A program made the translations under genes and the position numbers. The notes under the pieces were generated by a model. It saw only the letters and a list, made by a program, of their open reading frames with translations, did not search any database and was not told where the DNA came from. Below, piece after piece: positions 1-20,864 of a stretch of 25,442 nucleotides of DNA (the stretch's first letter is position 1; each line of letters opens with the position of its first letter). The DNA comes from Deltaproteobacteria bacterium. Its GTDB lineage: Bacteria > Desulfobacterota > Desulfobaccia > Desulfobaccales > 0-14-0-80-60-11. The stretch lies in contig JAMCQY010000216.1 of assembly GCA_023381945.1 (NCBI GenBank), positions 1-25,442 of the forward strand, written 5' to 3'.

Positions 1-430
1 TCAGGCTGGGGCCGTAACGAGCCCCGGCTTCGCCGCCCGAGACGCCCAGACCCATGAACCAGATCCCTTTGGCCGCCAGGGCCCGGGCCCGGCGGCTCGT
101 ATCAATGAAATGCGAATTGGCTCCATCAATGAGCAGGTCGCCGTGGGCCAGGAGAGGGAATAGTTCCTTGATGACGGTATCCACTGCCTCGCCAGCCGAT
201 ACCATGATCAAAATGGCGCGAGGCCGGCGGAGGAACCTGACGAATTCTTTCAGATCCAAACCGGGGCGGATATCCCGAGGCTCCACCTCTTGGGCCATGA
301 ATTCCCGGGTCCTGGCGACGGTGCGGTTGTACACGGCCACAGGAAACCCGTGGTCGGCGAAATTCAGGGCCAGGTTGCGGCCCATGGTCCCCAGGCCGAA
401 AACCCCGATCTCACATCCCGGTTTGGGCAT
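1..430 (-). CDS. gnd: 6-phosphogluconate dehydrogenase, N-terminal part (cut by window edge)
   Basis: Oxidatively decarboxylates 6-phosphogluconate to ribulose 5-phosphate, making NADPH (or NADH) in the cytosol. Only the first 143 codons are in the window. The N-terminal Rossmann nucleotide-binding loop is visible as GVFGLGTMGRN (residues 9-19). The family signature DGANSHFIDTSRR follows, and then the substrate-loop motif GVSGGEAGARYGPS at the very edge, closely matching GVSGGEEGAxxGPS in characterised enzymes. The start is the ATG at 430, which begins right before the nucleotide-binding strand as in E. coli Gnd. It is the last gene of a same-strand run tkt-rpiB-tal-gnd, but a 228-bp gap with degenerate repeats separates it from tal, so it may have its own promoter. 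Whether it is the long (about 470 aa) or short (about 300-330 aa, NAD-preferring) type cannot be decided from this fragment. Confidence 0.9.
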   Translation of the reverse strand, partial: MPKPGCEIGVFGLGTMGRNLALNFADHGFPVAVYNRTVARTREFMAQEVEPRDIRPGLDLKEFVRFLRRPRAILIMVSAGEAVDTVIKELFPLLAHGDLLIDGANSHFIDTSRRARALAAKGIWFMGLGVSGGEAGARYGPSL

Positions 431-449
431 AGTGAAATCTCCAATGAGC

Positions 450-480
450 AAGCAGTGAGCGGTGCGTAGTGAGCAGTAAC
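450..480. repeat. Degenerate AGCAGTGAGC-type simple repeat
   Basis: The stretch reads AGCAGTGAGCGGTGCGTAGTGAGCAGT, a degenerate direct repeat of a roughly 8-bp unit around GAGCAGT. Similar stretches recur at 640-660, 1931-1963, 6786-6820, 17918-17950 and 25293-25315, always next to gene ends or in gaps. No coding or promoter role can be read from it. The rest of 431-658 is AT-richer sequence without a convincing gene. Confidence 0.5.
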
Positions 481-658: not shown

Positions 659-1810
659 CTAGCCCAGAGAGCGGCGCTCCTCGCTGCTGCCCAGGGCCTC
701 ACGGCGCTTGCCCTCCAGAGTGCACATCAGGCTATCGTAGGGCTGGTTAAATTTTTCCACCCCTTCGTCTTCCAGTTGCTGGGTGGCCTCGTTGAGATCG
801 AGACCCAGCTCCGGCAGGCGTTGCAGATCCGCCGCGGCCTTTTCCAGCCCATCGGTCAGGCGCACGGCGGGGTTGCCGTGGTCCCGGTAGGCCTTCAAAG
901 TATCCAAGGGCATAGTATTAATGGTTTTGGGGCCGATGAGGGGCTCGACGTACTTGGTGTCGGGGTAGTCCGGATTCTTGGTGCTGGTGCTGGCCCAAAG
1001 CAGGCGCTGGACCTGGGCCCCTTTTTGGGCCAATACCTTAAATCGTTGGCTGCCAAAAATTTGCAGATAACTGGAGTAAGCCACTTTGGCGCTGGCAATG
1101 GCGACCTCGCCCTTCAGTGAGCCTGCGGCCGCGGCCAGAAAGCCGCCAGCTTGGGCGATCTTCTCTAACTTGGGGTCAAGCAGGACGTCGATGCGGCTCA
1201 GGAAGAAGCTGGCCACCGAAGCGACGTTCAGGTGCAAGCCCTGGGCGGCCCGGTCCTCCAGGCCGCGGAGGTAGGCATCAGCCACCTCCCGGTAGCGGGG
1301 CAAGCCGAAGAGCAGGGTGACGTTGATGTTGATCCCTTCGCTGACGAGCTGCCGGATGGCCAGCAGGCCCTCCTTGGTGGATGGCACTTTAATGAAGACG
1401 TTGGGCCGGTCCAGTTTGGACCATAAGCGCCGGGCCTCACGAATAGTGCCGTGGGTGTCGTGGGCCAGATGAGGGTTGACCTCCAGGCTGATGAAGCCGT
1501 CGGCCCCCTGGAGTTTATCAAAGCACGGCCGGAAGGCATCGGCGGCCCGCTGCACATCCGTCACGGTCAGGGCCTCGTAAATCTCCTGGATATCTTTGCC
1601 CTCCCGGGCCAGGAAGCTGATATCGTCGTCATAATCTTTGCTGCCCGAGATGGCCTTATCGAAGATGGAAGGATTGGAAGTCACTCCCCGCAGACCATCT
1701 TCATCGATGAGTTTCTGCAGTTCTCCGGTATCGATCATGTCCCGACTGATGTAGTCCAGCCAGATGGACTGGCCCAAGTCAGTCAAGTTGATTAACGGGT
1801 TCTCTTTCAT
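659..1810 (-). CDS. tal: Transaldolase
   Basis: Transfers a dihydroxyacetone unit between sedoheptulose 7-phosphate and glyceraldehyde 3-phosphate in the non-oxidative pentose phosphate pathway; cytosolic. The 383-aa length fits the long bacterial transaldolase class (about 360-380 aa, as in actinobacteria and many anaerobes). The N-terminal LGQSIWLDYISRDMI and GVTSNPSIFDKAI (residues 42-54) are the first family signature. The Schiff-base lysine is K141 in NVFIKVPST (137-145), and NINVTLLFGLPRY follows. The start at 1810 is an ATG just ahead of the conserved LGQSIW segment. The gene lies between rpiB and gnd in a same-strand pentose phosphate cluster. Its TAG stop directly abuts a degenerate repeat (about 640-660). 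Confidence 0.95.
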   Translation of the reverse strand: MKENPLINLTDLGQSIWLDYISRDMIDTGELQKLIDEDGLRGVTSNPSIFDKAISGSKDYDDDISFLAREGKDIQEIYEALTVTDVQRAADAFRPCFDKLQGADGFISLEVNPHLAHDTHGTIREARRLWSKLDRPNVFIKVPSTKEGLLAIRQLVSEGININVTLLFGLPRYREVADAYLRGLEDRAAQGLHLNVASVASFFLSRIDVLLDPKLEKIAQAGGFLAAAAGSLKGEVAIASAKVAYSSYLQIFGSQRFKVLAQKGAQVQRLLWASTSTKNPDYPDTKYVEPLIGPKTINTMPLDTLKAYRDHGNPAVRLTDGLEKAAADLQRLPELGLDLNEATQQLEDEGVEKFNQPYDSLMCTLEGKRREALGSSEERRSLG

Positions 1811-1930: not shown

Positions 1931-1963
1931 ACTGGCAACTGACTGCTGACTACTGACTACTGC
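1931..1963. repeat. CAGTAGTCAG-type simple repeat overlapping the rpiB stop codon
   Basis: Read on the minus strand it is CAGTAGTCAGTAGTCAGCAG and onward, repeats of CAGTAGT/CAGCAGT. The TAG stop codon of rpiB lies inside the first unit. It belongs to the same loose family as 17918-17950. The remainder of the gap 1811-1956 is AT-rich with no gene. Confidence 0.5.
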
Positions 1964-2406
1964 TTTTCCTCCAGGGCCGCCACCTTATCCAGACGGCGCT
2001 GGAAGCGCTCCGCCCCTTTGTAACGGGACTTCAAGAAGGTTTGAATCAGGTCCCAGGCCAGGGCATAGCAGGTAACCCGCCCGCCCAGGCACATGATGTT
2101 CATGTCGTCGTCCTCCACTCCCTGGTGAGCGGAATAGGGGTCAGTAATGAGGGCGGCCCGGATGCCGCGGATTTTGTTGGCGGCCACCGAGGCCCCTACT
2201 CCGCTGCCGCAGATGGCGATGCCGCGATCAACCTCGCCTTGAACCACAGCCCGGGCCAGGGGCACGACGTAATCGGGATAATCATCCTGGGCCTGGTATT
2301 CCTCGGCGCCGTAGTCCACGATCTCGTAGCCGGCGCCCCGGAGTTCCTCCAGCATCTTCTCCTTTAGCTCAAAGCCGCCATGGTCGGCAGCCAGACCGAC
2401 GCGCAT
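1957..2406 (-). CDS. rpiB: Ribose 5-phosphate isomerase B
   Basis: Interconverts ribose 5-phosphate and ribulose 5-phosphate in the cytosol. The 149-aa length and motifs fit the RpiB/LacA/LacB family: N-terminal VGLAADHGGFELK (D8, H9), the catalytic cysteine C66 in AICGSGVGASVAANK, and CLGGRV near residue 106. The ATG at 2406 is preferred over an in-frame TTG at 2421. The ATG is preceded by GGAGG with an 8-nt spacer, and the family starts just before the first beta strand. It sits between tkt and tal, separated from tkt by a 29-bp palindrome. The C-terminal stop is contributed by a simple repeat. Confidence 0.93.
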   Translation of the reverse strand: MRVGLAADHGGFELKEKMLEELRGAGYEIVDYGAEEYQAQDDYPDYVVPLARAVVQGEVDRGIAICGSGVGASVAANKIRGIRAALITDPYSAHQGVEDDDMNIMCLGGRVTCYALAWDLIQTFLKSRYKGAERFQRRLDKVAALEEKQ

Positions 2407-2427
2407 GCGTGGTTCCTCCAATGAGCC

Positions 2428-2463: not shown

Positions 2464-4332
2464 TCAACTTGCCGCAAGCTTGAAATCGTGCAGCAGATCC
2501 AATACCTGCTTGATAATGCCGTCCTGGGAGATGCCCTCGAAATCAAGGAGTTCACCGGGCTTGCCGGATTTGGGCTTTTTGCGCACCGCCAGGGAATAGA
2601 CCGGGGTCGGAACAGTAGCCAGGGCAGTGCGCACCGCGTCGGCAATCCCGCCTTCGGCATAATGATCCTCCACGGTGATGATGGCCCGGCTGGCTTCAGC
2701 CGCCGCCTTCAGGGTCTTTTCATCCACCGGCTTGACGCTGTAGAGGTCGATGACCCGGATGGCATAGCCCTTTTCCTGCAACTTATCGTGGGCCTTAAGG
2801 GCCTCGAATACCGTGATCCCGGCGGCGACGACCGTGACCATATCCTGTTTGCTTTGGCGCAGCACCTTGCAGCCGCCGATGGTGAACTTTTCCTCCGGGT
2901 CGTAGAGGATAGGCGTGGCCAGGCGGGAGGTGCGCAGATATGAGATGCCATCAAAGCGGGCCATGGCCTCCACCAGACGCTCAGTGGAGATCGCGTCGCA
3001 GGGGTAGAGGACCACGCTGTCCAGGATGGTCCGGAACATGGCCAGGTCCTCCAGGCCCATCTGGGAGGGGCCGTCCTCGCCGATGGAGACCCCGGCGTGG
3101 GAGCCGCAGAATTTGAGGTTGGGGTCGGAATACCGGCTCATGCGGATCTGGTCGAAGGCGCGGCTGAAAAAGGCCGCGAAGGTGGAGGCAAAGGGCATCT
3201 GGCCCCTGGCCTGGAGGCCCAGGGCGGCGCCCACCATGTTCTGTTCGGCGATATACATCTCGAAGAAACGGTCCGGATAAGCGTCTTTGAGGATTTCGGA
3301 GTAAGTGGAGTTGCTCACTTCGCCGTCCACCGCCACCATTTGGGGAAACTCCGGATAAAGGCGCTTCAGGGCATTGCCGTAGGCCTTGCGGGTGGCCACC
3401 TCCTTATCCTTCGGATAAGAGAGGGATTCGGCAGGCTTGGGTTTTGGCCTGGCCGGTTTAAAATCCTCCGGCGGTGAAAGCTCGCCCCGGACCGACTGAT
3501 CCACCGGTCCCAGTTCGGCCAGGGCCTTGGCTAACAGGTCCTTATCCAGGGGCTTGCCGTGCCAGCCGTTTTGGTTTTCTACGAACGACACGCCTTTGCC
3601 CTTGATGGTCTTGGCGATGAGCATGACAGGTTTGTCGGCCACCAGGGCGGCTTGGCGATAAGCCTCCAGGACCTCGGGGAAGGAGTGGCCATTTTGGATC
3701 AGGATAGTTTCCCAGCCGAAGGAGGCAATCCGGTCTTCATAGGCCATCAAATCCCAGCCGTACATGGTCTCGCCCCGCTGGCCCAGGCGGTTGACGTCGA
3801 GGACGCCCACCAGGTTGTCCAGTTTGTAGTGGGCCGCGAGCTGCAAGGCCTCCCACTGCGAGCCTTCGGCCATTTCGCTGTCGCCCAGGAGCACGTAAGT
3901 CGTATAGGGCACCTTGTCCAGGTACTTGCCGTTCAGGGCCTGGCCCACCCCGATGGAGAGTCCCTGGCCCAGGGAGCCGGTGGCCGCTTCCGTGAAGCGG
4001 AAGGCCATCGTGGGGTGGCCTTCCAGCGGGCTGCCGAAATGACGATAGGTCATCAGCTCATCGATGGTCAGGCCGCCCGCCGCAGCCCAAAGGGTATAGA
4101 ACAGGGGGGTGGCGTGGCCCTTGGAGAAGATCAGGCGGTCGTTATTGGGGTGCTTGGGATTCTTCAGGTCGTAGCGGAAGATGCCTCCGAAGAAGAGAGC
4201 AGCCATCAGCTCCACCCCGGACAGCGCCGAAGTGGGGTGACCGCTGCCGGCCTGGGTGGTCATATTGAGAATGTAATAGCGCATCCAGGCGGCGATCTTG
4301 GCCAATTTTTCCAGATGTTCTTTTTCTGCCAT
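2464..4332 (-). CDS. tkt: Transketolase
   Basis: Thiamine diphosphate enzyme that moves two-carbon ketol units between pentose phosphate sugars; cytosolic. The 622-aa single chain matches the short, mammalian-like transketolase class (about 620 aa) rather than the 660-670-aa E. coli type. Seen in order: SGHPTSALSGVEL (H32), SKGHA (70-74), the ThDP/metal motif GDSEMAEGSQWEAL (150-163) ending at N181, and then NRLGQ. A PKPKP-rich linker near 292-300 is followed by the pyrimidine-binding domain with the catalytic Glu E363 in IAEQNMVGAALG. The start at 4332 has GGAGG about 9 nt upstream. It is the first gene of the tkt-rpiB-tal-gnd run. The 135-bp gap upstream (4333-4467) is AT-rich and could hold the promoter, but no clear -35/-10 pair stands out. 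Confidence 0.96.
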   Translation of the reverse strand: MAEKEHLEKLAKIAAWMRYYILNMTTQAGSGHPTSALSGVELMAALFFGGIFRYDLKNPKHPNNDRLIFSKGHATPLFYTLWAAAGGLTIDELMTYRHFGSPLEGHPTMAFRFTEAATGSLGQGLSIGVGQALNGKYLDKVPYTTYVLLGDSEMAEGSQWEALQLAAHYKLDNLVGVLDVNRLGQRGETMYGWDLMAYEDRIASFGWETILIQNGHSFPEVLEAYRQAALVADKPVMLIAKTIKGKGVSFVENQNGWHGKPLDKDLLAKALAELGPVDQSVRGELSPPEDFKPARPKPKPAESLSYPKDKEVATRKAYGNALKRLYPEFPQMVAVDGEVSNSTYSEILKDAYPDRFFEMYIAEQNMVGAALGLQARGQMPFASTFAAFFSRAFDQIRMSRYSDPNLKFCGSHAGVSIGEDGPSQMGLEDLAMFRTILDSVVLYPCDAISTERLVEAMARFDGISYLRTSRLATPILYDPEEKFTIGGCKVLRQSKQDMVTVVAAGITVFEALKAHDKLQEKGYAIRVIDLYSVKPVDEKTLKAAAEASRAIITVEDHYAEGGIADAVRTALATVPTPVYSLAVRKKPKSGKPGELLDFEGISQDGIIKQVLDLLHDFKLAAS

Positions 4333-5791: not shown

Positions 5792-6771
5792 CACCACCAA
5801 GCCGCCAATCCCTTTCTGGCCCAAAGGTTCGCCAGGACCACGGCCAGCACCGCCAGGGGATAGTAGCTGGCCCGGTTAAACAGGGCCGCGGCGCAATCAT
5901 GATTCCGGTAAAGCCGCCAGGCGGGGAGCAACAACAGGTAGACCCCCAACCCCAAGATCAGGAGCTGATGCGAAAGGGGGAAAGTGCTCGGACCCAAGCG
6001 CAGGATGGCCAGGCTGAGGATGAGGCTGCCGGCCAAAGCAGCCAGGGATAAGGCCCCGGCTTTTCTGAGACCAAAGACCACCGGAATCGTCTTCGCCCTG
6101 AGGCGGCGGTCAGGTTCGACATCATGCCAGTCGGCCGGGATATTTTGGCCGCCGACTTCCCAGAGAAAGATCCAGAGGGAAAGCACCGCCAGGAAGACCG
6201 GCGAGGGCTGTGGGTCAACGGCGAAGACCGCGGCCGCCGCGCCCAGGCTCTTGACCACGCCGGCCACCAGCAGGCGCAGATGGCTGACCTTGAGGAGCAG
6301 GCAATAGACGGCCTCAAGAATGCAGCCCAGAAGAAAGATCAAGGCGCACACCGGATTGAGGGTGTAAGCGCCCAGGAGGGCGACGAAGGCCCAGGCGCCG
6401 GTCCAGGCCAGCCCCTCGCGGAAGCTCATCTTCCCGGCGGCCATGGGGTGGCGCACGAACACGGCATCCAGATAATGATCCGCCTTGGGAGCCCCCTCCA
6501 GGAGAAGTTTTTCCTGGTCCACGCGGCAGTCCACCACGTCGTTCAGGGCGTAAACCGCGGTATAGCCGGCAAAGACGGTGAGCAGGCCCAGGGTGATGAC
6601 CCCCGGGGGTGGGAAAGCCCCCAGACAGAGAAGCGCCGCCAGGGCCGGGGCTGCCAGGTCCAGGAGGCCGTGGGGGGTGCGGGACAGGGCCAGAAAGAGC
6701 TTGAAACGGGAGAGGCCGAACTCCATGGCGGACGGGTTCGTTTCAGCTTTCAGGATAGGATGGTCGCTCAT
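5791..6771 (-). CDS. UbiA-family prenyltransferase (integral membrane)
   Basis: Predicted to transfer a polyprenyl group from a diphosphate donor to an acceptor in the membrane; the acceptor cannot be told. The 326-aa protein has about eight to nine hydrophobic helices. Both aspartate-rich motifs are present: NDVVDCRVD (N77-D85) and DWHDVEPD (D214-D221), which bind Mg-diphosphate in this superfamily. Between the first motif and HPMAAGKMS there is an insertion of about 20 residues (KLLLEGAPKADHYLDAVFVR), where most UbiA/MenA proteins go straight to an RPL-type segment. The start is an ATG at 6771; no strong ribosome-binding site is visible. It heads a run with the two DUF2231 genes. Quinone biosynthesis (UbiA/MenA-like), haem O/A or lipid sugar roles are all possible. 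Confidence 0.85.
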   Translation of the reverse strand: MSDHPILKAETNPSAMEFGLSRFKLFLALSRTPHGLLDLAAPALAALLCLGAFPPPGVITLGLLTVFAGYTAVYALNDVVDCRVDQEKLLLEGAPKADHYLDAVFVRHPMAAGKMSFREGLAWTGAWAFVALLGAYTLNPVCALIFLLGCILEAVYCLLLKVSHLRLLVAGVVKSLGAAAAVFAVDPQPSPVFLAVLSLWIFLWEVGGQNIPADWHDVEPDRRLRAKTIPVVFGLRKAGALSLAALAGSLILSLAILRLGPSTFPLSHQLLILGLGVYLLLLPAWRLYRNHDCAAALFNRASYYPLAVLAVVLANLWARKGLAAWW

Positions 6772-8144: not shown

Positions 8145-8570
8145 ATGCAGCCGGTAAGTCCCGCCATCTTGAGCCCCTGGTCCCCTGGATTGCTCAGTCT
8201 GGCCCTCTATACCGGCATTGTCCTGGTCCTGCTGGGGTTGCTGTTGTTCCTGACCCGGTGGCTGGGGGAACAGAAGCCCGACTATGAAAAGAAACGACCC
8301 TACGAATGCGGGGTGATTCCCACCGGCGGCGCCCGTTTCCGCTATCCGGTGCCCTTTTACCTGGTGGCGGTTTTTTTTCTCATCTTCGACGTGGAAACCG
8401 CCCTGATCTTTTCCTGGGCGGTGGCCATCGAAGACCTCGGTTGGCGCGGCTGGCTGCAGATCAGCTTTTTCATCATCATCCTGCTCCTCAGCCTGGTTTA
8501 TCTGTGGCTCAAAGGAGGGCTCGATTGGCAGCCCCGGTTACTTCGAAAGGCGTCACCACTCCGGAAATAA
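8145..8570 (+). CDS. nuoA: NADH-quinone oxidoreductase subunit A (complex I)
   Basis: Small membrane subunit (141 aa) at the junction of the hydrophilic and membrane arms of complex I. Three hydrophobic helices are visible. The family marks are [13 protein letters not shown] on the cytoplasmic loop and [19 protein letters not shown] in the second helix, with the conserved Asp-Val-Glu. AGGAAG lies 5 nt upstream of the ATG at 8145. It is the first gene of the nuo operon and overlaps the next gene, nuoBCD, by 46 nt. Confidence 0.95.
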
Positions 8571-10984
8571 TCCGCGGTCTGGAATATCTGAACCGGCCGC
8601 GGTTTGAAAGGGGGGAACAGCCCGGCAGCCGGATGGAACACGCCCTCGATTCCCTGATCAACTGGTGCCGGGCCTACAGCTTCTGGCCCCTCTTTTTCGG
8701 GCTGTCCTGCTGTTTCATCGAAGAGATCACCGCCTGGACCCCCCGCTTCGACATCTCCCGGTTCGGGGCCGAGGTCCTCAGGGGCTCGCCCCGGCAATCG
8801 GACCTGCTGATCATCTCCGGCACGGTTTTCAAGAAGATCGCCCCAGTGGTGCTCAGGCTCTATGAGCAGATGACCGAGCCGAAATGGGTCATCTCCATGG
8901 GCTCCTGCGCCAACTGCGGCGGCATGTACGACTGCTACAGCGTGGTTCAGGGCGTCGACCAGATCCTGCCGGTGGATATCTACATCCCCGGCTGTCCGCC
9001 GCGGCCCGAGGCGGTTATGCAGTCCATTGTGCTGCTCCAGGAGAAGGTGATGTCCGAACGGCCGCTGCGCAAGATCCTGCACCGGCCCGGCGGCAGCCAG
9101 GGGACGCAGATTCCCATTCTGGCGGACGGCCTGACCAAATCCAGGGATTGCCGGGGCCCCGGCTATTACGGCACCCCGCCCCGGGGCTCCGAGGAGACCC
9201 CGCCCATGTTTTTCGATTCCCGGTCCGACCAGATGTGGACTCCGCCACCCCCTTGGATCGAACTAAAGGAGACGGATCAATCCCTGGCCAAGACCTTAAA
9301 AGAAAAATTCGGGGACGCGGTGGCCCAGGCGGAAAATACCTCGGACATGCTGACCTTTCAGGTGGAAGCGGAACGGGTCAAAGAAGTGCTGCGCTTTTTA
9401 AAAACCGAGTCTGAACCAAAATTTCTGCGCCTGGACGACCTGACCGCGGTGGACGAAACCGCCCGGCGGGAGCGGGAGAAGTACCCGGATTTCACCCTGA
9501 ACTACCAGCTTCTCTCCTTCGAGTCGGCCACGCGGGTGCGCCTGAAGGCGCCGCTTTTAGGACCTGCGCCGGCTATCCGCACCATCACCGACCTCTGGCC
9601 CTCGGCCAATTGGTACGAGCGCGAGGCCTTTGATATGTTCGGCATTCATTTCGAAGGCCACCCTCGCCTGTGGCGCATCCTCATGCCTCACGATTGGGAG
9701 GGGCATCCACTCAGAAAAAGCTATCCGGACCGGGCCACCGACATGCCGCCCTACACTCATTACGATGCCCAGAAGCACCAACCCCGTGACGGCGGCGAAT
9801 ATTTTGCCGGGCAGCTGACCGAGGACCAGTATGTCCTGAATATCGGACCGCACCACATCAGCACCCACGGCCTGATTCGGTTTATCCTGGCCCTAAGGGG
9901 CGAAGAGATCACCGCCCTCGACACGGATATCGGCTATCACCACCGGGCAGCGGAGAAGATCGGCGAGCGGCAAAACTGGCACCAATTCATCCCCTATACC
10001 GACCGGGTGGACTATCTCACCGGGGTGGCCAACAACCTCACCTACCTGCTGGCGGTGGAGAAGCTGGCGGGTATCCCGGTGCCGGACCGGGCTCAGGTTA
10101 TCCGGGTGATGCTCACCGAGTTCTTCCGCCTCAGCAACCACCTGGTATGGTTTTCCACCTACACCCACGACACCGGCGCCATGACCCCCAACTTCTACTG
10201 CTTCGCCGAGCGGGAGAAGATCATGGACATCGTCGAGCTGATCACCGGAGGGCGGCTCCATCCCTCCTGGTTCCGGCTGGGCGGCGTGGCCATGGACCTG
10301 CCCGAGGGCTGGAAGGAACTGGTGGATGATTTTGTCAAGGTGTTCCCCAAGCGCATTAAGGAATTTGAGGCCCTGATCACTAAAAACCCCATCTTCCAGG
10401 CCCGAACCCGGGACGTGGGTTATCTCTCCAAGCAGAACGCCATGGAATGGGGGGTCACCGGACCCAACCTCAGGGCCAGCGGCCTGGAATGGGATTTGCG
10501 CAAGCAGATGCCTTATTCGGGCTATGAACACTACGATTTCGACATTCCCTACGCCACCGGCGGCGATTGCTACGCCCGTTATCTGGTGCGGGTGGAGGAG
10601 ATGCGCCAGAGTGTCAGGATCATCGAGCAGGCTGCCAACCGGATGCCGCCGGGGCGCTGGCTCAGCGACGACTACCGTTACATCATTCCCCCCAAGGAAG
10701 AGACCCTGACGGACATCGAGACCCTGATTCATCATTTCATCAACGTCACCCGCGGCGCCAAGATTCCCCGGGGGGAGGCCTACATGGCCACCGAGCACCC
10801 GCGGGGTGAGCAGGGGGTGTATGCTGCCAGCGACGGCCTGCACATGGCTTACCGGCTGCGGTTCCGGTCGCCCGGTTTTGCCCACGTCCAGGCCATGCCC
10901 CTGATGGCGGCGGGACATTTGCTTTCCGATCTGATTGCGATTCTTGGGTCGGTTGACTTTATTTTACCGGATATCGATAGGTAA
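8525..10984 (+). CDS. nuoBCD: Complex I subunits B, C and D fused in one polypeptide
   Basis: One 819-aa frame carries three peripheral-arm subunits that normally transfer electrons to quinone. Residues 1-185 are NuoB, with the N2 cluster ligands C62, C63 (LSCCFIE), C128 (GSCANCGG) and C157 (IPGCPPRP). After a Gly/Pro-rich linker, about 245-405 is NuoC ([20 protein letters not shown]). About 432-819 is NuoD, starting [17 protein letters not shown]. The NuoD part keeps the quinone-site His in STHG and the Tyr of the DRVDY segment, and ends [11 protein letters not shown]. The start is TTG at 8525: a perfect AGGAGG (8513-8518) stands 6 nt before it, whereas the ATG at 8633 would remove conserved N-terminal residues. 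The C-D part is most like E. coli NuoCD. A B-C-D fusion is rarer; I recall such fusions annotated in some Geobacter-type genomes. Confidence 0.95.
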
Positions 10985-11149: not shown

Positions 11150-11644
11150 ATGATCCCGCAAGAATTACGAGAACAATTGCAAACCCAAATCGCCGAGGCC
11201 GAACACGCCCGGGAGCAGGCGATTAACGTCATGTTCGCGGTTCAGAAACATTACGGCTACCTGAGCGATGAGGGTCTGGAGGAGGCGGCGGGCCTTCTTA
11301 AGCTGACCCCGCTGGAATTGGAGGAACTGGCCACCTTTTATGACTTTCTCTACCGGCGCCCGGTCGGTAGATATGTCATCCATGTGTGCGATGGGGTGGT
11401 TTGCTGGATGTTCCATGAAAACAGTATGTTCGATTATCTCTGCAAAAAACTGGGGGTGGGCGCCGGGGAAGTTTCGGCGGACGGCTGGTTCACCGTGTTG
11501 CCCACGGCCTGCATCGGTTTCTGCGATCACGCTCCTGCCATGTTGATTAATGGCAAGATGTACGGCCCTCTCACCCCTTCGGCAATCGACGAGATTTTGG
11601 AGAAGCTGAAGGAAGAATACCACGACGTGGTGACACCTAAATAA
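11150..11644 (+). CDS. nuoE: NADH-quinone oxidoreductase subunit E (complex I)
   Basis: Thioredoxin-like peripheral-arm subunit (164 aa) that carries the [2Fe-2S] cluster N1a beside the FMN of NuoF. The four ligands are C80 and C85 (HVCDGVVCW) and C121 and C125 (TACIGFCDHAPAM), the C-x4-C...C-x3-C pattern of the family. The N-terminal helical part (residues 1-65) includes VQKHYGYLS and LELEELATFYDF. The ATG at 11150 is the only start that keeps the family's N-terminus. The preceding TTAAAATTT shows no Shine-Dalgarno sequence; an ATG at 11131 is out of frame. It is followed by a hairpin-bearing gap and nuoF. Confidence 0.95.
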   Translation: MIPQELREQLQTQIAEAEHAREQAINVMFAVQKHYGYLSDEGLEEAAGLLKLTPLELEELATFYDFLYRRPVGRYVIHVCDGVVCWMFHENSMFDYLCKKLGVGAGEVSADGWFTVLPTACIGFCDHAPAMLINGKMYGPLTPSAIDEILEKLKEEYHDVVTPK

Positions 11645-11733: not shown

Positions 11734-13038
11734 ATGTTTAAAGAAGTGTTGTTTAAAAACCGCCGGCCCGACCGCCCCGCCACATTCGATGAGTACCGGC
11801 AGAGCGGCGGCTATGAGGCCTTGATCAAGGCTGTGAAAGAGCGGAAGCCGGAGGAGGTCCAGAAACTGGTGCTGGATTCCGGCTTGCGCGGCCGGGGCGG
11901 GGCCGGCTTCCCAACCGGCCGCAAATGGGCTTTCATCCCTCCCGACTCAGGCTTTCCGCGCTATCTGGCGCCCAATACCGACGAAATGGAGCCCGGGACT
12001 TTCAAGGACCGGGTGCTGGTGAATACCGACCCCCATCTGGTCATCGAAGGCATCATCCTGGCGGGATATGCGGTTCAGGCACAGACCGCTTATTTCTTTA
12101 TTCGGCCATCCTATGAGGCGGACGCCGAACTCATCGAGCGAGAGGCCGAAGTGGCCCGGCAGGCCGGCTTTTTGGGGAAAAATATTCTGGGGAGCGACTT
12201 CTCTTTTGACCTGGTCGCACACCGCAGCGCCGGGCGCTATATCTGCGGTGAGGCCACCGCCCTGGTCCAAGCCCTCCAGGGCAACCGGGTCTACCCCTTG
12301 AAAGATCGCCGTATGGCCTCTGACGGTCTCTGGCACCGGCCCACCATTGTTAATAATGCCGAGACCCTGGCCTGCGTGCCGGGCATTTTGCGCCATGGGG
12401 CGGACTGGTTCAAAGGCCTGGCCCGGACCAAGTCCGGGGCCGGGACCAAGCTCTTCTGCGTCAGCGGCAAGGTCAACCAGCCTGGCTGCTACGAGCTGCC
12501 GGTAGGCGTAACGCTCAGGGAAATAATCGAAGAGTCGGCAGGCGGGCTGATGGAGGGCTCAGAGTTAAAAGCGGTCATGCCCGGCGGGGCCTCCACGGCC
12601 TTCATGCCCGCCAAATACTATGATGTGGAGATGGATTTCGAACCCCTGGAGAAAATCGGCCACCGGCTGGGAACCGCAGCCATCATGGTCTTTGACCAAG
12701 GCACTTGCCTGGTGGCTGCCGCCCTCAACCTGACGGAGTATTTTGCTCGGGAATCCTGCGGTTACTGCACTCCGTGCCGGGAGGGCCTGCCCTACCTCAG
12801 GGATCTGCTCTGGCGGATCGAGGCCGGAGAAGGCAGGGAGGAGTTCATACCCATGATCGAAGAAATGGCCCGTTATATGGACTACTCTTATTGCGGCTTC
12901 GCCCCCGGGGCGGCGGAGCCGATCTTGGGGCTGCTGAAATATTTTAAAGACGAGATTCGGGAACATATCAGCCAGAAAAAATGCCCGTTTTCCGAGACTT
13001 ACCGGCCGAACCGGCAACTATGGTACCCGGCGGAGTGA
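11734..13038 (+). CDS. nuoF: NADH-quinone oxidoreductase subunit F (complex I), unusual nucleotide pocket
   Basis: FMN and [4Fe-4S] N3 subunit (434 aa) that takes hydride from the pyridine nucleotide. The glycine-rich FMN/nucleotide loop GLRGRGGAGFPTGRKW (50-65) is intact, as is TDEMEPGTFKDR (82-93). N3 ligands are C342, C345, C348 (ESCGYCTPCREG) and C387 (SYCGFAPGA). Two normally strict segments differ. ICGEET is ICGEAT (A174 at the position of E. coli E183). KPPFPA is KDRRMA (190-195), with Arg at the Phe that stacks on adenine in the Thermus structure. Overall it resembles E. coli NuoF, not the longer hydrogenase-type HoxF/HydB. The start is ATG 11734 with only GAG upstream. The switch suggests altered NADH/NADPH preference; this is inference. 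Confidence 0.94.
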   Translation: MFKEVLFKNRRPDRPATFDEYRQSGGYEALIKAVKERKPEEVQKLVLDSGLRGRGGAGFPTGRKWAFIPPDSGFPRYLAPNTDEMEPGTFKDRVLVNTDPHLVIEGIILAGYAVQAQTAYFFIRPSYEADAELIEREAEVARQAGFLGKNILGSDFSFDLVAHRSAGRYICGEATALVQALQGNRVYPLKDRRMASDGLWHRPTIVNNAETLACVPGILRHGADWFKGLARTKSGAGTKLFCVSGKVNQPGCYELPVGVTLREIIEESAGGLMEGSELKAVMPGGASTAFMPAKYYDVEMDFEPLEKIGHRLGTAAIMVFDQGTCLVAAALNLTEYFARESCGYCTPCREGLPYLRDLLWRIEAGEGREEFIPMIEEMARYMDYSYCGFAPGAAEPILGLLKYFKDEIREHISQKKCPFSETYRPNRQLWYPAE

Positions 13039-13050
13039 GAAAAATTAACC

Positions 13051-13109
13051 GTAGGGGCGCACCCATGTGTGCGCCCTAACTCAGGGCGGACACGCGGGTG
13101 CGCCCCTAC
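13051..13109. repeat. 59-bp composite element with GTAGGGGC/GCCCCTAC ends, copy 2
   Basis: It has GTAGGGGC (13051-13058) and GCCCCTAC (13102-13109) ends. Inside, GGGCGCAC/GTGCGCCC forms one hairpin and an imperfect GGGCG...CGCCC the second. It starts 12 nt after the nuoF stop and ends 10 nt before the nuoG ATG. Confidence 0.82.
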
Positions 13110-13119
13110 ATTAGACAAT

Positions 13120-15621
13120 ATGCCCAAACTCATCATCGACAACCGGCCCATCGAGGTCACGGAAGGAACCAAGGTCATCGCTGCGGCCGAAAAATTGGGG
13201 ATCATTATTCCGCGGTTCTGCTATCATCCCGGCCTGGGCTCTTTCGGGGCCTGCCGGATGTGCGCCGTCAAATTCGAGGATGGGCCGGTGAAGGGCATCA
13301 AAATGAGCTGCATGGAAGATGCCCGGGATGGCATGGTGGTCTCGACCGCCGACCCGGAGGCCGTGGAGTTCCGCAAGTACGTCATTGAATGGCTGATGAT
13401 GCACCATCCCCTGGACTGCCCGGTGTGCGACGAAGGCGGCCACTGCCTTCTTCAGGATGAGACGGTCTCCGGCGGCCATGGCATCCGCCGCTATCCGGGG
13501 CGCAAGCGCACTTACCACGATCAGTACCTCGGGGCCTTCGTGCAGCACGAGATGAACCGCTGCATCCAATGCTGGCGCTGCCGCAACTTTTACCAGGAAT
13601 TTGCCGGGTACCGGGATTTCGGGGCCATGCAGATTGGCAACCGCATGTATTTCGGCCGCTATAAGGACGGCCCGTTGGAGAGTCCCTTTTCGGGAAATAT
13701 TATTGACATCTGCCCCACCGGGGTGCTCACCGATAAACCGGCCCGTTTCGTGGGGCGGCGCTGGGACTTCGAACGGGCCCCGTCAGTGTGCCTCCATTGT
13801 TCCCTGGGCTGCAACACCACCGGCAGCGCCCGCTACCGGCAGATGTGGCGCCAGGAAGCGCGCCACCATGAAATGGTGAACGGCTATTTCATCTGCGACC
13901 GGGGACGCTACGGCTTCACTTACGAAAGCCACGCGGACCGGCCCCGCCGGGCCCGGGTTTCCGGAAAAGAGGTGGATTGGCAGGAAGGCATTGCGGCGGC
14001 TGCCGGGAAGCTGGCCCAAATTGCGGCAACTTCCGGCCCCGGAGCCATCGCCTGCCTGGGCTCGCCCCGCAGCAGCCTGGAGTCCCAGGCGATGCTCAAG
14101 CGCTTCTGCCGCATCCTGGGATGGACTGAGCCCTACTATTTTTCGGTGCCAGCGCAGGAGCGTAAGGTCAAGGCCGCGGTCTCCCATCTGTCCGCCCGCC
14201 TGGCGGTGTCTATGCGGGAACTGGAAAAGGCGGACTTCATCCTGGTGGCCGGGGCTGATCCGGTGAATGAAGCCCCCATGCTGGCCCTGGCTTTGCGCCA
14301 GGCCTGGCGCGCCGGAGGCAAGGTGGTAGTGTTGGACCCGCGGCCGGTTTCCCTCCCCTTTAGATTTCAGCACCTGCCCCTGGCTCCGGGGAATCTCAAT
14401 GCGGCCCTGGGAATGATAGGGGCGCGGGCCCTGGACGGCAAGAATTTGGAGGGGCTTTCCCCCGGGATGCGGCAATTTTACCAGGCCCTGCTGAAAGCCT
14501 ACCGCCCGGATGAGCAAACTTATGGCCGCTTGAATGACCTGAGCATGGAATTGGCCAAGGCTAAGCGGCCGATCCTGATCTGCGGCACCGATATCGTACA
14601 GGATGCCACACCGGCCCTGGCCGCGGATTTGGTGGCGCTGCTCCGGGAAGCCGGTTCAAATGCCGGGTTATTTTACCTGCTGCCCGGCGCCAATAGTTTT
14701 GGCGCCGCCCTGCTGTCCCCAGGCGGCGCCGGGGTGACCCCGCTGGTGGAGGCCTTGGAAAGCGGCGCCATCAAGGCTTTGCTGGTGGTGGAAGCCGACC
14801 CCGGCTGGGATTATCCGGACCGGGAGAGGCTGTCAAGGGCGTTGGAAAAGCTCGAATTGCTGGTGGTCCTGGACTGCCTGCCCACGCCCCTGGTGCAGCG
14901 GGCGGACGTGGTTTTTCCCACCCTTACCGTCTTCGAGCGCACCCCTGCCAGCTTCGTCAACCAGGAGGGCCGCCTGCAACTGGCCACGCCGGTGCACCGC
15001 GGCGGCGCTCCCATGAAGCAGGTCAGCGCGGGCCAGCATCCGCCCCGGACTTTTTTGAATTACATTCCCGGCGGCGAGCCTAAACACGCTACGGCAATTC
15101 TCTCAGAGTTGGCTGCGGCCTGTTCCCCGCAGGCAATACTGTCCACTGACGACCTCTGGGATTGGCTGATCCAGGAAAATCCGGTTTTTACCAATATTTC
15201 CGATTTATTGGCGCCGCCGCCCGGAGCCCGGCTGTTGCCCGAGGCCATCCCGGTTGCGGACTTGACGCTGACTGAAGCCTTGCAACCGGTTGCGCCTCTT
15301 TCGAACCACCTCGAACTTCTTCTGGTGGACTCGACCTTCGGCACTGAAGAACTGGCCAGCTACTCGAGGTATATCCACCCCGTGGAAGAGCATCCCCATT
15401 TGCATCTGCATCCCGAAGATGCGGCCAAGCTGGGCCTTCAGCCTGGGGACCAGGTGGCTTTACGGCTCCCGGGGGGCGAACTGCGGGTGCCCTTAGCGGT
15501 GGCGGAAAATATGGCTCCCGGGGTAATGATCTTGCCCCGGCATCGGCAACTGAATTGGCGCCTGGTGCCGGATTATCAGGTTTGGGTCGCAGCGAGCGAC
15601 ATCGTCAAGGTGGAAGAATAA
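13120..15621 (+). CDS. nuoG: NADH-quinone oxidoreductase subunit G (complex I)
   Basis: The large iron-sulfur subunit of the peripheral arm (833 aa), of the E. coli type with a degenerate molybdopterin-oxidoreductase-like C-terminal domain. Clusters can be read in order. N1b: C34, C45, C48, C64. N5: H96, C100, C103, C109 (HHPLDCPVCDEGGHC). N4: C148, C151, C154, C198 (RCIQCWRC, CPTG). The extra N7 cluster: C224, C227, C231, C259 (CLHCSLGC, ICDRGR). The C-terminal part runs from about 265 to the end. ATG 13120 is chosen because the upstream in-frame GTG at 13069 lies inside a palindromic repeat. No clear ribosome-binding site precedes it. The stop overlaps the nuoH start by one base (TAATG). 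Confidence 0.95.
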   Translation: MPKLIIDNRPIEVTEGTKVIAAAEKLGIIIPRFCYHPGLGSFGACRMCAVKFEDGPVKGIKMSCMEDARDGMVVSTADPEAVEFRKYVIEWLMMHHPLDCPVCDEGGHCLLQDETVSGGHGIRRYPGRKRTYHDQYLGAFVQHEMNRCIQCWRCRNFYQEFAGYRDFGAMQIGNRMYFGRYKDGPLESPFSGNIIDICPTGVLTDKPARFVGRRWDFERAPSVCLHCSLGCNTTGSARYRQMWRQEARHHEMVNGYFICDRGRYGFTYESHADRPRRARVSGKEVDWQEGIAAAAGKLAQIAATSGPGAIACLGSPRSSLESQAMLKRFCRILGWTEPYYFSVPAQERKVKAAVSHLSARLAVSMRELEKADFILVAGADPVNEAPMLALALRQAWRAGGKVVVLDPRPVSLPFRFQHLPLAPGNLNAALGMIGARALDGKNLEGLSPGMRQFYQALLKAYRPDEQTYGRLNDLSMELAKAKRPILICGTDIVQDATPALAADLVALLREAGSNAGLFYLLPGANSFGAALLSPGGAGVTPLVEALESGAIKALLVVEADPGWDYPDRERLSRALEKLELLVVLDCLPTPLVQRADVVFPTLTVFERTPASFVNQEGRLQLATPVHRGGAPMKQVSAGQHPPRTFLNYIPGGEPKHATAILSELAAACSPQAILSTDDLWDWLIQENPVFTNISDLLAPPPGARLLPEAIPVADLTLTEALQPVAPLSNHLELLLVDSTFGTEELASYSRYIHPVEEHPHLHLHPEDAAKLGLQPGDQVALRLPGGELRVPLAVAENMAPGVMILPRHRQLNWRLVPDYQVWVAASDIVKVEE

Positions 15622-16613
15622 TGTCGGTCTGGGCCCTGGGCTTAATCCTCTTGATCGTCAAGCTGCTCATCGTCCTGGTGGTGGTGCTGTTCCTGGCTGC
15701 CTACCTGATCTACGTGGAACGCCGGCTCCTGGGGTTCATGCAGCTGCGCCTGGGTCCGAATAGGGCCGGCCCTCTGGGACTGCTGCAACCCATCGCCGAC
15801 GCGGTGAAGCTGCTGACCAAGGAGGATTTTATCCCCGCCGGCGCCGACCGGGTCATCTTCCTTTACGCCCCAGCGGTGGTGGCGGCCGTGGCCTTGCTCA
15901 TCTTCGCGGTGGTGCCCTTTGCCCAGGGCTGGACCTTCCGGGGGCAGAAGATCCCCGGGGTGGTCAGCGACCTTAATGTCGGTCTGTTGGTCGTCCTGGC
16001 GCTCTCCAGCATCGGGGTTTATGGCGTGGCGCTGGGAGGCTGGGCCTCCAACTCCAAGTTTGCCCTGATGGGGGCCATCCGGGGCGCGGCCCAGATGATC
16101 AGCTACGAGCTGGCGCTGGGTCTGTCCCTGGCGCCGGTGGTGATGCTGGCCCGGTCCTTCTCTTTGGTGGACATTGTCCAGGCGCAGGCCAAGACGCCTT
16201 TCATCATCTTCCAGCCGCTGGCCTTCCTCATCTTTTTCATCGCCGCCGTAGCCGAAATGAAGCGCATTCCCTTCGACATCCCCGAAGCGGAAAACGAGTT
16301 GGTGGCCGGCTATCACATGGAATACAGCGGCATGCGCTTCGGGCTCTATTTTTTGGGGGAGTATGTCACCATGGTGATCCTGGGGGCCCTGGTGGCGGTA
16401 TTCTTTCTGGGCGGCTGGCGGGGGCCGTGGCTGCCGCCTCTGATCTGGTTCTTCATCAAGGTCTTCATCGTGGTGTTTATCATTATCTGGCTGCGGGGCA
16501 CCTATCCCCGGTTGCGTTTCGACCAGTTGATGGATTTGGGCTGGAAGGTTTTGATCCCCTTGTCGCTCCTGAACATCATCATTACCGGCGGGGTCATGCT
16601 GGCAATGACCTAA
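15621..16613 (+). CDS. nuoH: NADH-quinone oxidoreductase subunit H (complex I)
   Basis: The membrane subunit (330 aa, about eight helices) that forms the quinone chamber and links it to the proton channels. Family motifs are RLGPNRAGPLGLLQPIADA near residue 43, the charged loop PFDIPEAENELVAGYHMEYS, and the C-terminal PRLRFDQLMDLGWKVLIPLS. The ATG at 15621 shares its A with the nuoG stop, and GGTGGAAG lies just upstream. The next complex I gene, nuoI, is displaced by a methyltransferase gene. Confidence 0.96.
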   Translation: MSVWALGLILLIVKLLIVLVVVLFLAAYLIYVERRLLGFMQLRLGPNRAGPLGLLQPIADAVKLLTKEDFIPAGADRVIFLYAPAVVAAVALLIFAVVPFAQGWTFRGQKIPGVVSDLNVGLLVVLALSSIGVYGVALGGWASNSKFALMGAIRGAAQMISYELALGLSLAPVVMLARSFSLVDIVQAQAKTPFIIFQPLAFLIFFIAAVAEMKRIPFDIPEAENELVAGYHMEYSGMRFGLYFLGEYVTMVILGALVAVFFLGGWRGPWLPPLIWFFIKVFIVVFIIIWLRGTYPRLRFDQLMDLGWKVLIPLSLLNIIITGGVMLAMT

Positions 16614-16693: not shown

Positions 16694-17284
16694 ATGGCTA
16701 AGCCTTCTGATTCAGCGATGGCCAAGCCCCCCGGGGCGGGGAAAAGCAGCTTCGATCTCATCGAGCCGGCCAGGCTCCTGAGCGGGTTGCCGCTCAAACC
16801 CGGCATCACCTTTCTGGACCTGGGCTGCGGCGCCGGCAATTATACCATGGCGGTAGCCGAAGTCATCGGCGCGCAGGGAGTGGTCGTGGCCCTGGATCTG
16901 TGGCCGCCGGGAATTGAAACTCTGGAAGAACGAGCCACGGCCGCCGGCCGGCGGAATATCCGGGCTGTACTGGCAGACATCAGCAAGACCATTCCCCTGG
17001 GCGATCATAGTGTTGACGTCTGCCTGATGGCTACAGTGCTCCACGACCTGGCGGAATTCGCCATGGAGAAGGGCGCGCTTGAGGAAGCTGCTCGGGTTTT
17101 GAAGCCCGGCGGGGTGCTGGCCATCGTTGAGTTCGATAAGGTCGAAGGCCCGCCGGGGCCGCCCCTGCGAATCCGGCTGACTCCGCAAGAAGTGGAAAAC
17201 CTGGTGGTTCCTTACGGCTTTCAAAAGACCCGCCTGGTTCGGGTCGGGCCATTCAATTATTTGATTTTATTAACCAAAAAATAG
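16694..17284 (+). CDS. Class I SAM-dependent methyltransferase inside the nuo operon
   Basis: A 196-aa soluble methyltransferase of unknown substrate. Motif I is FLDLGCGAGNYT (40-51), an acidic residue follows beta-2 (ALDLWP, D68), and LKPGGVLAIVEF (136-147) resembles the UbiE/methyltransferase-11 group. The ATG at 16694 is preceded by GGGGAG at 5 nt. It sits between nuoH and nuoI, a pair usually adjacent in complex I operons, and is on the same strand. Possible targets are a quinone headgroup or a complex I subunit, but it could equally be an unrelated gene carried in the operon. A TAG stop (17282-17284) coincides with the first bases of the following palindromic element. Confidence 0.85.
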   Translation: MAKPSDSAMAKPPGAGKSSFDLIEPARLLSGLPLKPGITFLDLGCGAGNYTMAVAEVIGAQGVVVALDLWPPGIETLEERATAAGRRNIRAVLADISKTIPLGDHSVDVCLMATVLHDLAEFAMEKGALEEAARVLKPGGVLAIVEFDKVEGPPGPPLRIRLTPQEVENLVVPYGFQKTRLVRVGPFNYLILLTKK

Positions 17285-17340: not shown

Positions 17341-17916
17341 ATGCCTGAAGTCAAAGACCGGATACAGACCAGGCCAAATATTTTGCAGGCGGTGGGTTGG
17401 GCCGTCGCCGGATTATGGCAGGGACTGATGATGGTGCTCCGCCACTTGTTTCGGCGGGCGGTCACCGAGCAATACCCCGATTATAAGCGCTTCCTGCCGA
17501 AACGGTCCCGGGCCCGGATCATTCTGACCCGGGACCCCGACGGCGAAGAACGCTGCGTCGCCTGCTTCCTGTGCTCGGCGGTCTGCCCCACCAGCTGCAT
17601 CTCCATGGTTTGCGAGGAACGCGCCGACGGCCGCCGTTGGGCGCCCTGGTTCCGCATCAATTTCGCCCGCTGCATTTACTGCGGCCTGTGCGAAGAGGCC
17701 TGTCCCACCCTGGCCATCCAGCTCACGCCTTTTTATGAGTTTTGCGAGCCCACCATCCTGGACATGGTGGCGGAGAAGAAGGACTTGCTGGTAAATCACG
17801 GCGGCAAAAATCTTGAATATAATTTTTACCGCTACGCCGCAGTGACCATGGTAGGCGGCAAAGGCAGTCATATCAATGAAGCGGCCCCGGTGGACTTGAA
17901 GAGCAACTTGCCTTGA
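17341..17916 (+). CDS. nuoI: NADH-quinone oxidoreductase subunit I (complex I)
   Basis: Ferredoxin-like subunit (191 aa) carrying [4Fe-4S] clusters N6a and N6b between NuoG and NuoB. The two C-x2-C-x2-C-x3-C sets are C72, C75, C78, C82 (CVACFLCSAVCP) and C111, C114, C117, C121 (CIYCGLCEEACP), each with the usual crossover proline. The N-terminal helical anchor and RIILTRDPDGEERC before the first set match the family. AAGGA lies 7 nt before the ATG. Confidence 0.96.
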   Translation: MPEVKDRIQTRPNILQAVGWAVAGLWQGLMMVLRHLFRRAVTEQYPDYKRFLPKRSRARIILTRDPDGEERCVACFLCSAVCPTSCISMVCEERADGRRWAPWFRINFARCIYCGLCEEACPTLAIQLTPFYEFCEPTILDMVAEKKDLLVNHGGKNLEYNFYRYAAVTMVGGKGSHINEAAPVDLKSNLP

Positions 17917-17988: not shown

Positions 17989-18486
17989 ATGAACCTATAC
18001 GCCATCATCTTTTACGTCCTGGCCTTTATCATCCTGGCGAGCACCGCCCTGGCCGTCACCCGCCGCAACCTGATGCACGCCATCGTCTATCTGGTGCTGT
18101 CCTTTTTTGGCACAGCGTTGCTTTTTTATTTGCTTGGCGCGCCTTTTCTGGCGGTTCTGGAGGTAATCATTTACGCCGGGGCCATCATGGTGCTCTTTCT
18201 GTTCATCGTGATGATGCTGGAGATTCGGTCCCCGGAGGAGCCGGTCAGGTCCTATCTGCTCAGATGGCTGCCCGCCGCGGTTATGGGCGCCTTGAGTCTG
18301 GCTGCGGCCGGCATTTTGCTCGTCTTTAAGTCCGGCCGCAGCCTGCCTCTGCCGCTCTCCGCCGCCTCGCCCCTGGAATTCGGGCGGTTTCTGTTCCAGA
18401 GGTACTGGTTTTCAGTGGAGATTGTCTCCTATCTGCTCTTTGTGGCCCTGGTGGGGGCGCTGTATTTGGGGAGGAAAGAGGGATAG
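17989..18486 (+). CDS. nuoJ: NADH-quinone oxidoreductase subunit J (complex I)
   Basis: Membrane subunit (165 aa, five hydrophobic helices). The diagnostic third-helix segment is EVIIYAGAIMVLFLFIVMML. TRRNLMHAIVYLVLSFFGTA in the first part is also typical. The ATG at 17989 begins at the first helix; only a distant AAAGG is seen upstream. A GTAGGG-type palindrome follows the stop by 5 nt, before nuoK. Confidence 0.95.
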   Translation: MNLYAIIFYVLAFIILASTALAVTRRNLMHAIVYLVLSFFGTALLFYLLGAPFLAVLEVIIYAGAIMVLFLFIVMMLEIRSPEEPVRSYLLRWLPAAVMGALSLAAAGILLVFKSGRSLPLPLSAASPLEFGRFLFQRYWFSVEIVSYLLFVALVGALYLGRKEG

Positions 18487-18520: not shown

Positions 18521-18583
18521 AACAGCAACAAAGATACTGAAAGGCGGGCAAGGAGGCCCGACCTATTAAATTTGAGCCATTTT

Positions 18584-18895
18584 ATGACAACCATCGTCCC
18601 TTACAGTCATGTGCTGGTCCTGGCCGGGGCCATGTTCTTCCTGGGTGCGGCCTGTGCCGCGGCCCGGCGCAATCTGGTGATGATCCTGATCGGCGTGGAG
18701 GTGATGTTGAATGCCGCCGGCGTCGCCCTGGTGGCCGCTTCCCTGCGCTGGCAGCAGTTGGACGGCCAGGCCCTGGTGATCTTCATCATGTGCGTGGCCG
18801 CTTCCGAAGTGGCCGTGGGTTTGGCCCTCATCGTCTACTCCCAGCGGCGTACCGGCGCCCTGGATGCCGACCGCTACAACCTTATGAAAGGCTGA
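18584..18895 (+). CDS. nuoK: NADH-quinone oxidoreductase subunit K (complex I)
   Basis: Small three-helix proton-channel subunit (103 aa). The two conserved membrane glutamates are E39 in LIGVEVMLN and E75 in AASEVAVGLALIV. RRNLVMILIG precedes the first. ATG 18584 is preferred over an in-frame TTG at 18572 because it matches the usual length and N-terminus, although AAGGAGG (18550-18556) lies too far from either start for an ideal fit. The next gene, nuoL, starts one base after the stop. Confidence 0.93.
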   Translation: MTTIVPYSHVLVLAGAMFFLGAACAAARRNLVMILIGVEVMLNAAGVALVAASLRWQQLDGQALVIFIMCVAASEVAVGLALIVYSQRRTGALDADRYNLMKG

Positions 18896-18896
18896 C

Positions 18897-20864
<1,968 letters not shown>

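Follow-up and report, generated by a model that had tools for sequence, protein, structure and literature searches.

The window analysed here, a 25,442-nucleotide stretch of contig JAMCQY010000216.1 from a Deltaproteobacteria bacterium, carries a complex I gene cluster on its forward strand. The cluster opens with nuoA (8145..8570), whose best match, at 78.3 bits, lay under the cut-off of that model, and continues with nuoB, nuoC and nuoD joined in one reading frame (8306..10984; 1366.7 bits with the B/C/D model NF009808), the true start of which lies downstream of 8306. The fused gene scored above its cut-off, as did nuoE (11150..11644; NF005722, 185.9 bits), nuoG (13069..15621; TIGR01973, 510.7 bits), the nuoH open reading frame (15555..16613, with a true start probably downstream of 15555; NF004741, 371.2 bits) and nuoI (17341..17916; NF004536, 245.9 bits). 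The nuoF gene (11734..13038) is therefore encoded alongside other complex I subunits, those named so far having been placed by family search and nuoJ (17989-18486), nuoK (18572-18895), nuoL (18897-20864), nuoM (20878-22386) and nuoN (22520-23977), all on the same strand, by their reading frames and by a gene order that is the same in relatives. A UbiE/ArsM-like methyltransferase gene (16694-17284) sits between nuoH and nuoI; it also occurs in genome G002 (L126, 2894-3454, 79%) and was not detected in the other nuo clusters compared. A 3-dehydroquinate synthase-like gene (24184-25314) lies directly downstream of nuoN.

The 434-residue product of nuoF, the FMN/NAD(P)H-binding subunit, has the fold, the FMN/nicotinamide residues and the N3 [4Fe-4S] cysteines of a complex I (NDH-1) NuoF. 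GRGGAGFPTG and F67 are intact in its translation, as are K64, the conserved Lys of GRKW (11923..11925), the N81-x-D83-E84-M-E86 FMN/nicotinamide loop (11974..11991) and the N3 ligands C342, C345, C348 and C387 (12757..12894). The usual CGEET reads CGEAT (C171-G-E-A174-T, 12244-12258), and A174 (codon GCC, 12253..12255) aligns with E183 of E. coli NuoF, the adenosine-ribose Glu, which by residue count on the PDB alignments is the second Glu of CGEET. KPPFPA is remodelled to KDRRMA (K190-D-R192-R193-M-A, 12301..12318). R193 fell on the column of the Phe of KPPFP in both multiple alignments made, a residue that the same count places at F203 in E. coli and F205 in T. thermophilus; the match of K190 to the Lys of KPPFP is uncertain because the loop of the window is one residue shorter than that of E. 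coli or Thermus. The translation thus agreed with the first-pass annotation, which had placed both substitutions within 12247-12318 and had listed the FMN/NADH loop, K64, F67 and the N3 ligands as intact. Where a canonical NADH-specific NuoF has Glu at E. coli position 183 and Phe or Tyr at position 203, the window protein has A174 and R193, a small residue for the Glu and a basic residue for the Phe, the combination found in T. kivui HydB. It also scored below the curated NCBIfam cut-offs of all three NuoF models that it matched (TIGR01959, 487.7 against 558.65 bits; NF008436, 444.5 against 749; NF010120, 377.3 against 389), which is not specific by itself because the NuoA of the cluster is likewise under its cut-offs.

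We aligned related NuoF proteins at these two sites, as the first-pass annotation had proposed, using the 178 nearest homologues, which are the best 120 of each of two overlapping searches with the window protein included and so not a random sample. None of the 178 has Glu at position 174 (164 Ala, 11 Gly, 2 Ser, 1 Val); the loss exceeds chance and is no private oddity of the window. The Phe position is occupied by His in 159, Arg in 12, Phe in 5 and Trp and Tyr in one each, giving a basic residue in 171/178. The earlier suggestion of a two-arginine signature held for this one basic position only: R192 is unconserved (Arg in 18/178), and since R192 and R193 occur together in just 2/178, one of them the window, we rejected the arginine pair as a family feature. 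N81, D83, E84, E86 and E173 were found in 178/178, K64 in 177 (with one gap) and the N3 cysteines in 176 to 178, while F67, intact in the window, is variable, with Phe in 83/178. The nicotinamide half of the site is therefore fully constrained, whereas the adenosine half has been altered and the alteration retained.

Of 395 genomes searched across the phylum, 61 gave a match at E no higher than 1e-118, and a quick tree of 111 rows was built with the trait columns omitted (five rows were dropped: three repeats, one cut short and one unrelated). Twenty-seven rows without the Glu formed one clade (SH-aLRT 100), and four changes are needed on the tree as a whole, at least three of them on supported branches. 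Eleven rows of the main clade have the form of the window, His or Arg followed mostly by Met (hereafter HM). The other 16 rows of that clade, a sister subclade to the HM form, also lack the Glu but mostly keep Tyr at the second site (12 rows, against 3 with Arg and one with Phe), which counts against a preference for NADPH. The remaining Glu-less rows belong to complex I clusters (L087, L091 and L092/L093) or are HydB-like (L021/L023). When the tree rows were joined by five PDB chains (116 rows), the 81 rows with Glu had Phe (67) or Tyr (14) and never a basic residue at the Phe position, as against 14 His, 7 Arg, 12 Tyr, 1 Phe and 1 Leu in the 35 rows without it. A basic residue, present in 21 rows, was thus confined to proteins that lack the Glu. 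Only three independent pairs underlie this pattern and the sign test was not significant (p 0.25), so that the link is an association and not proof of correlated evolution; L091, which lacks the Glu yet has Leu at the Phe position, also counts against the NADPH reading.

The four complex I NuoF proteins of other lineages (L087, L091, L092 and L093) have Gly or Ala for the Glu and His, Leu or Arg for the Phe, and all carry Asp for the usual Asn ahead of DEMEPG, reading DADEMEPG. The HydB-like L021 and L023, together with PDB chain 9mqx_B, have GESSA/GESTA instead of GEETA and KY(I/V)H(A/T) instead of KPPFP (GESSA and KYIHAT in 9mqx_B) and are candidate NADP(H)-linked enzymes; a structure search with the L021 model confirmed the fold and added nothing further. 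GEAS or GEAT with HM or RM was also found in Desulfoferula mesophila (P0121, whose NuoF is 100% identical to that of G302), Desulfovibrio inopinatus (P0151) and Fundidesulfovibrio soli (P0160), which fall in Desulfarculia and Desulfovibrionia. The carriers include named, cultured sulfate reducers in which the NADPH reading would be directly testable.

Enzymes of known cofactor use supplied the controls. HydB of the T. kivui HydABC hydrogenase (PDB 8a6t, so assigned in passages of PMC10482914) reads CGESTA...RVRPPRTNECGLW in chain 8a6t_B, with Ser for the Glu and Arg for the Phe, and the purified enzyme, supplied with H2 and ferredoxin, reached 20.8 U/mg on NADP+ as against <0.01 on NAD+ in the portion of PMC8578170 that describes it. 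The A. woodii HydB (7q4v), 58% identical to that of T. kivui and NAD+-dependent according to the same portion (PMC8578170), reads CGEETA and PRPRPPFPA and so keeps both residues. Both are also kept in StnB of Sporomusa (8oh5), described as binding NAD+ in passages of PMC10482914 and PMC7483475, and in 9bov (solved with NAD, by its entry title), each of which reads CGEETA and RLKPPFPA. The signature was checked in this way on one enzyme measured as NADP+-only, T. kivui HydB, which differs from the A. woodii protein at many positions, a point against the NADPH reading. A further point against it is that the GDEGDPG loop, which passages of PMC9431212 propose as helping to set cofactor specificity, is lacking in the window, where NTDEMEPG stands at that place.

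Engineered variants of R. capsulatus FdsB bear on the same two sites. As described in passages of PMC10671435, the wild type has no NADP+ activity, K157 (to which we take K64 of the window to be equivalent, by motif) is essential for nicotinamide binding, and NADP+ activity is gained by E259R, E259K, E259G and E259Q but not by E259D. L279R and K276A gain it as well (PMC10671435, same passages), and by spacing we assign K276 and L279 to the Lys and Phe positions of KPPFP. E183 variants of E. coli complex I (Gln and His) are cited there as higher in affinity for NADPH. Two details of these passages count against the NADPH reading: K276A removes a positive charge and nevertheless gains NADP+ activity, and the mutants retain low NAD+ activity, the combinations tried being non-additive (PMC10671435). 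This residual activity would suit a pocket of relaxed, dual specificity that takes NADH and NADPH alike, with NADH still the main donor in the cell, and the sister subclade that keeps Tyr suggests in addition that loss of the Glu alone was the shared step. We regard dual specificity as unlikely, though it is the alternative that survives best, given that T. kivui HydB, which carries both changes, depends strictly on NADP+ (PMC8578170, in part) and that His or Arg in nearly all of the nearest homologues argues for a selected contact over relaxation.

A pocket that favours NADPH would be in keeping with the genes next to it. Divergent from nuo, on the reverse strand of the window, lie gnd (6-phosphogluconate dehydrogenase, 2..451, cut by the window edge; PF03446, with an NRT motif), tal (transaldolase, 659..1810; PF00923, 287.8 bits), what we take from its sequence to be an rpiB-like ribose-5-phosphate isomerase gene (1957..2421) and what is presumably tkt, a single-chain transketolase of 622 aa (2464..4332), the last two having homologues in the same place in relatives. 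These are followed by DUF2231 genes and a UbiA-family gene. The two adjacent DUF2231 membrane protein genes (4468-5220 and 5213-5824), between tkt and the UbiA-family gene, include one with a fused cytochrome b5-like domain, and the pair is also present in G002, G019 and G020. In G002, whose NuoF is 85% identical to that of the window, the block continues with gnd and zwf, then with genes that we presume from their sequence to be pgl and, later, rpe.

The pentose phosphate block that the first-pass annotation had pointed to proved recurrent. Pentose phosphate genes adjoin nuo in 10 of the 14 HM-type loci, the window counted and the 14 including three (G001, G007 and G076) whose contigs end too soon to show neighbours; the linked loci are the window, G002, G019, G020, G021 (tal only), G082, G302, G446, G455 and G607. 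G017, with an HM-type NuoF, has no pentose phosphate genes within about 14 kb upstream of nuoA, which counts against the NADPH reading. The loci are unlike in gene order and even in the kind of transketolase encoded, and the association is therefore not one frozen block. In three genomes another type of transketolase, with about 25% identity to that of the window, takes the place of tkt (L123, 11115-13175, in G302; L148, 4119-6161, in G446; L125, 1915-3945, in G082).

We found zwf at most 20 kb from nuoF in 6/13 HM genomes (G002, G082 and G302 by family model; G446, G455 and G607 by tblastn), compared with 0/34 Glu-type genomes and 0/16 of the sister form, the last count being taken without regard to contig ends. 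Eighteen of the Glu-type genomes have zwf; in 12 of these the contig extends 20 kb or more to either side of nuoF, while in the other six a contig end could hide a linked copy. Fisher tests gave 1.6e-4 against 0/34 and 0.015 against 0/12, both blind to kinship. Among the genomes searched, zwf was present somewhere in 10/10 HM, 18/34 Glu-type and 5/16 sister-form genomes (Fisher 0.007 for HM against Glu-type); its presence in so few of the sister subclade, and linked in none, counts against the NADPH reading.

The cofactor type of the supplying enzymes was less clear-cut. In the window, G002, G082, G302 and G455, the Gnd encoded beside nuo has the N-R-T motif with which T. maritima 6PGDH binds the 2'-phosphate, as described in part of PMC5090862. 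Gnd of the window-type genomes had NRT in 8 of the 10 read (NRH in G001, NRS in G076; G017, G021 and G446 are left out of the count), and the nine short Gnd read from Glu-type genomes were mixed, with three NRT and six other motifs. This mixture counts against the NADPH reading, and we set aside Gnd motifs as a match to NuoF type across genomes for want of a clean contrast. Zwf was likewise rejected as proof of NADPH supply. Of nine Zwf from HM genomes, aligned by eye, eight have Ala and His at the positions of K18 and R50 in E. coli (L127, 3503-5050, and its relatives are G6PDH of this kind), and only that of G607 differs, with Thr and Arg; in E. coli G6PDH the loss of both charges abolishes cofactor discrimination (PMC4807051, in part). 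Since eight of the nine lack both NADP+-binding charges, the G6PDH step may yield NADH or NADPH. The Wood-Ljungdahl pathway was dropped as an NADPH source, G025 having no match of the NuoF clade of the window. The transhydrogenase gene pntB, in only 8/64 genomes and 1/10 of the HM genomes searched, was uninformative as a contrast between types.

The absence of PntB from 9 of those 10 genomes may nevertheless leave a need for another source of NADPH, and complex I chemistry is reversible. The same NADP(H) pocket could then work mostly backwards, with quinol and the proton motive force reducing NADP+ for biosynthesis and the pentose phosphate genes shuffling carbon. We consider reverse operation improbable, because the linked oxidative branch (zwf and gnd, with pgl as well in G002) would be redundant as a source of NADPH. 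The first-pass annotation had also allowed for another donor, and the remodelled adenine side and the variable F67 might suggest that nucleotide binding has been lost and that a reduced protein, either ferredoxin or a partner dehydrogenase, feeds the FMN or the Fe-S chain. Such a loss became very improbable: a free site would drift, and N81, D83, E84 and E86 are invariant with K64 all but so; moreover, the cluster has nuoE, nuoF and nuoG, and none of its reading frames is an obvious donor gene. Neutral drift in a lightly used subunit is scarcely credible in the face of clade-wide conservation and of repeated Glu loss with a basic second-site replacement in most lineages.

NADPH as the donor is the best supported reading, because a measured relative has both changes, the gene linkage recurs and the structural background agrees. 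The NADPH-favouring pocket proposed in the first-pass annotation is thus supported, as a prediction from sequence and comparative analysis, by T. kivui HydB, the FdsB mutants, the recurrent loss of the Glu, the restriction of a basic residue to proteins without it and the pentose phosphate neighbours. We think it fairly likely that the window encodes a complete complex I cluster with a NuoF re-specified from NADH to NADPH, and NADPH, not NADH, is probably the fuel of this branch of complex I. With A174 in place of the ribose-gripping Glu, the pocket would lose the charge and the bulk that exclude a 2'-phosphate, and R193, His in most relatives, would replace the adenine-stacking Phe and probably hold that phosphate. 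To judge from the residues and subunits present, the complex would still pass hydride to FMN, carry electrons along its Fe-S path and pump protons. It would then oxidise NADPH made by the adjacent oxidative pentose phosphate enzymes, chiefly the NADP+-type Gnd, with quinone as acceptor, conserving energy. With somewhat less assurance, we lean towards a wider proposal, namely that one branch of true complex I is a naturally occurring NADPH:quinone oxidoreductase that pumps protons, is spread over at least two named classes of Thermodesulfobacteriota and respires NADPH from the adjacent oxidative pentose phosphate block, with the same switch remade in other NuoF lineages.

Standard teaching treats complex I as an enzyme for NADH and keeps NADPH, the carrier for biosynthesis, out of respiration. 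If the NADPH reading is true, electrons can enter respiration directly from the NADPH pool; this would suggest how energy is conserved in anaerobes whose catabolism yields NADPH, and would show that a cofactor switch readable from two residues can lie hidden behind the automatic label ‘NADH-quinone oxidoreductase subunit F’. To our knowledge, energy-converting NADPH:quinone oxidoreductase activity is recorded only for engineered E. coli complex I; the branch described here is most likely its natural form, and its members would be natural counterparts of the engineered enzyme. No natural NADPH-type NuoF in complex I was reported in the titles and opening lines of abstracts among the literature matches listed, a search whose scope left most subscription journals outside. 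A study of E183 variants of E. coli complex I (Morina et al. 2011, J Biol Chem 286:34627) reportedly found that removal of the Glu raises NADPH use, and its abstract reportedly called the NADPH activity of these variants not found in nature.

Compared with NuoF/Nqo1 of E. coli and T. thermophilus, the window NuoF shares the fold, the FMN loop, the nicotinamide-side residues, the N3 ligands and the other subunits of the cluster, but it is without the ribose Glu and the KPPFP Phe. The E183 variants of E. coli are engineered, whereas the window NuoF is natural and carries a second change in the adenine loop. In R. capsulatus FdsB, the same two positions govern NADP+ activity (E259G, L279R), again in an engineered enzyme, a formate dehydrogenase. 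T. kivui HydB (8a6t_B) resembles the window NuoF in having a small residue for the Glu and Arg for the Phe at the same sites, and differs in being a subunit of a soluble bifurcating hydrogenase, in having additional N- and C-terminal parts and in falling outside the complex I branch of the tree.
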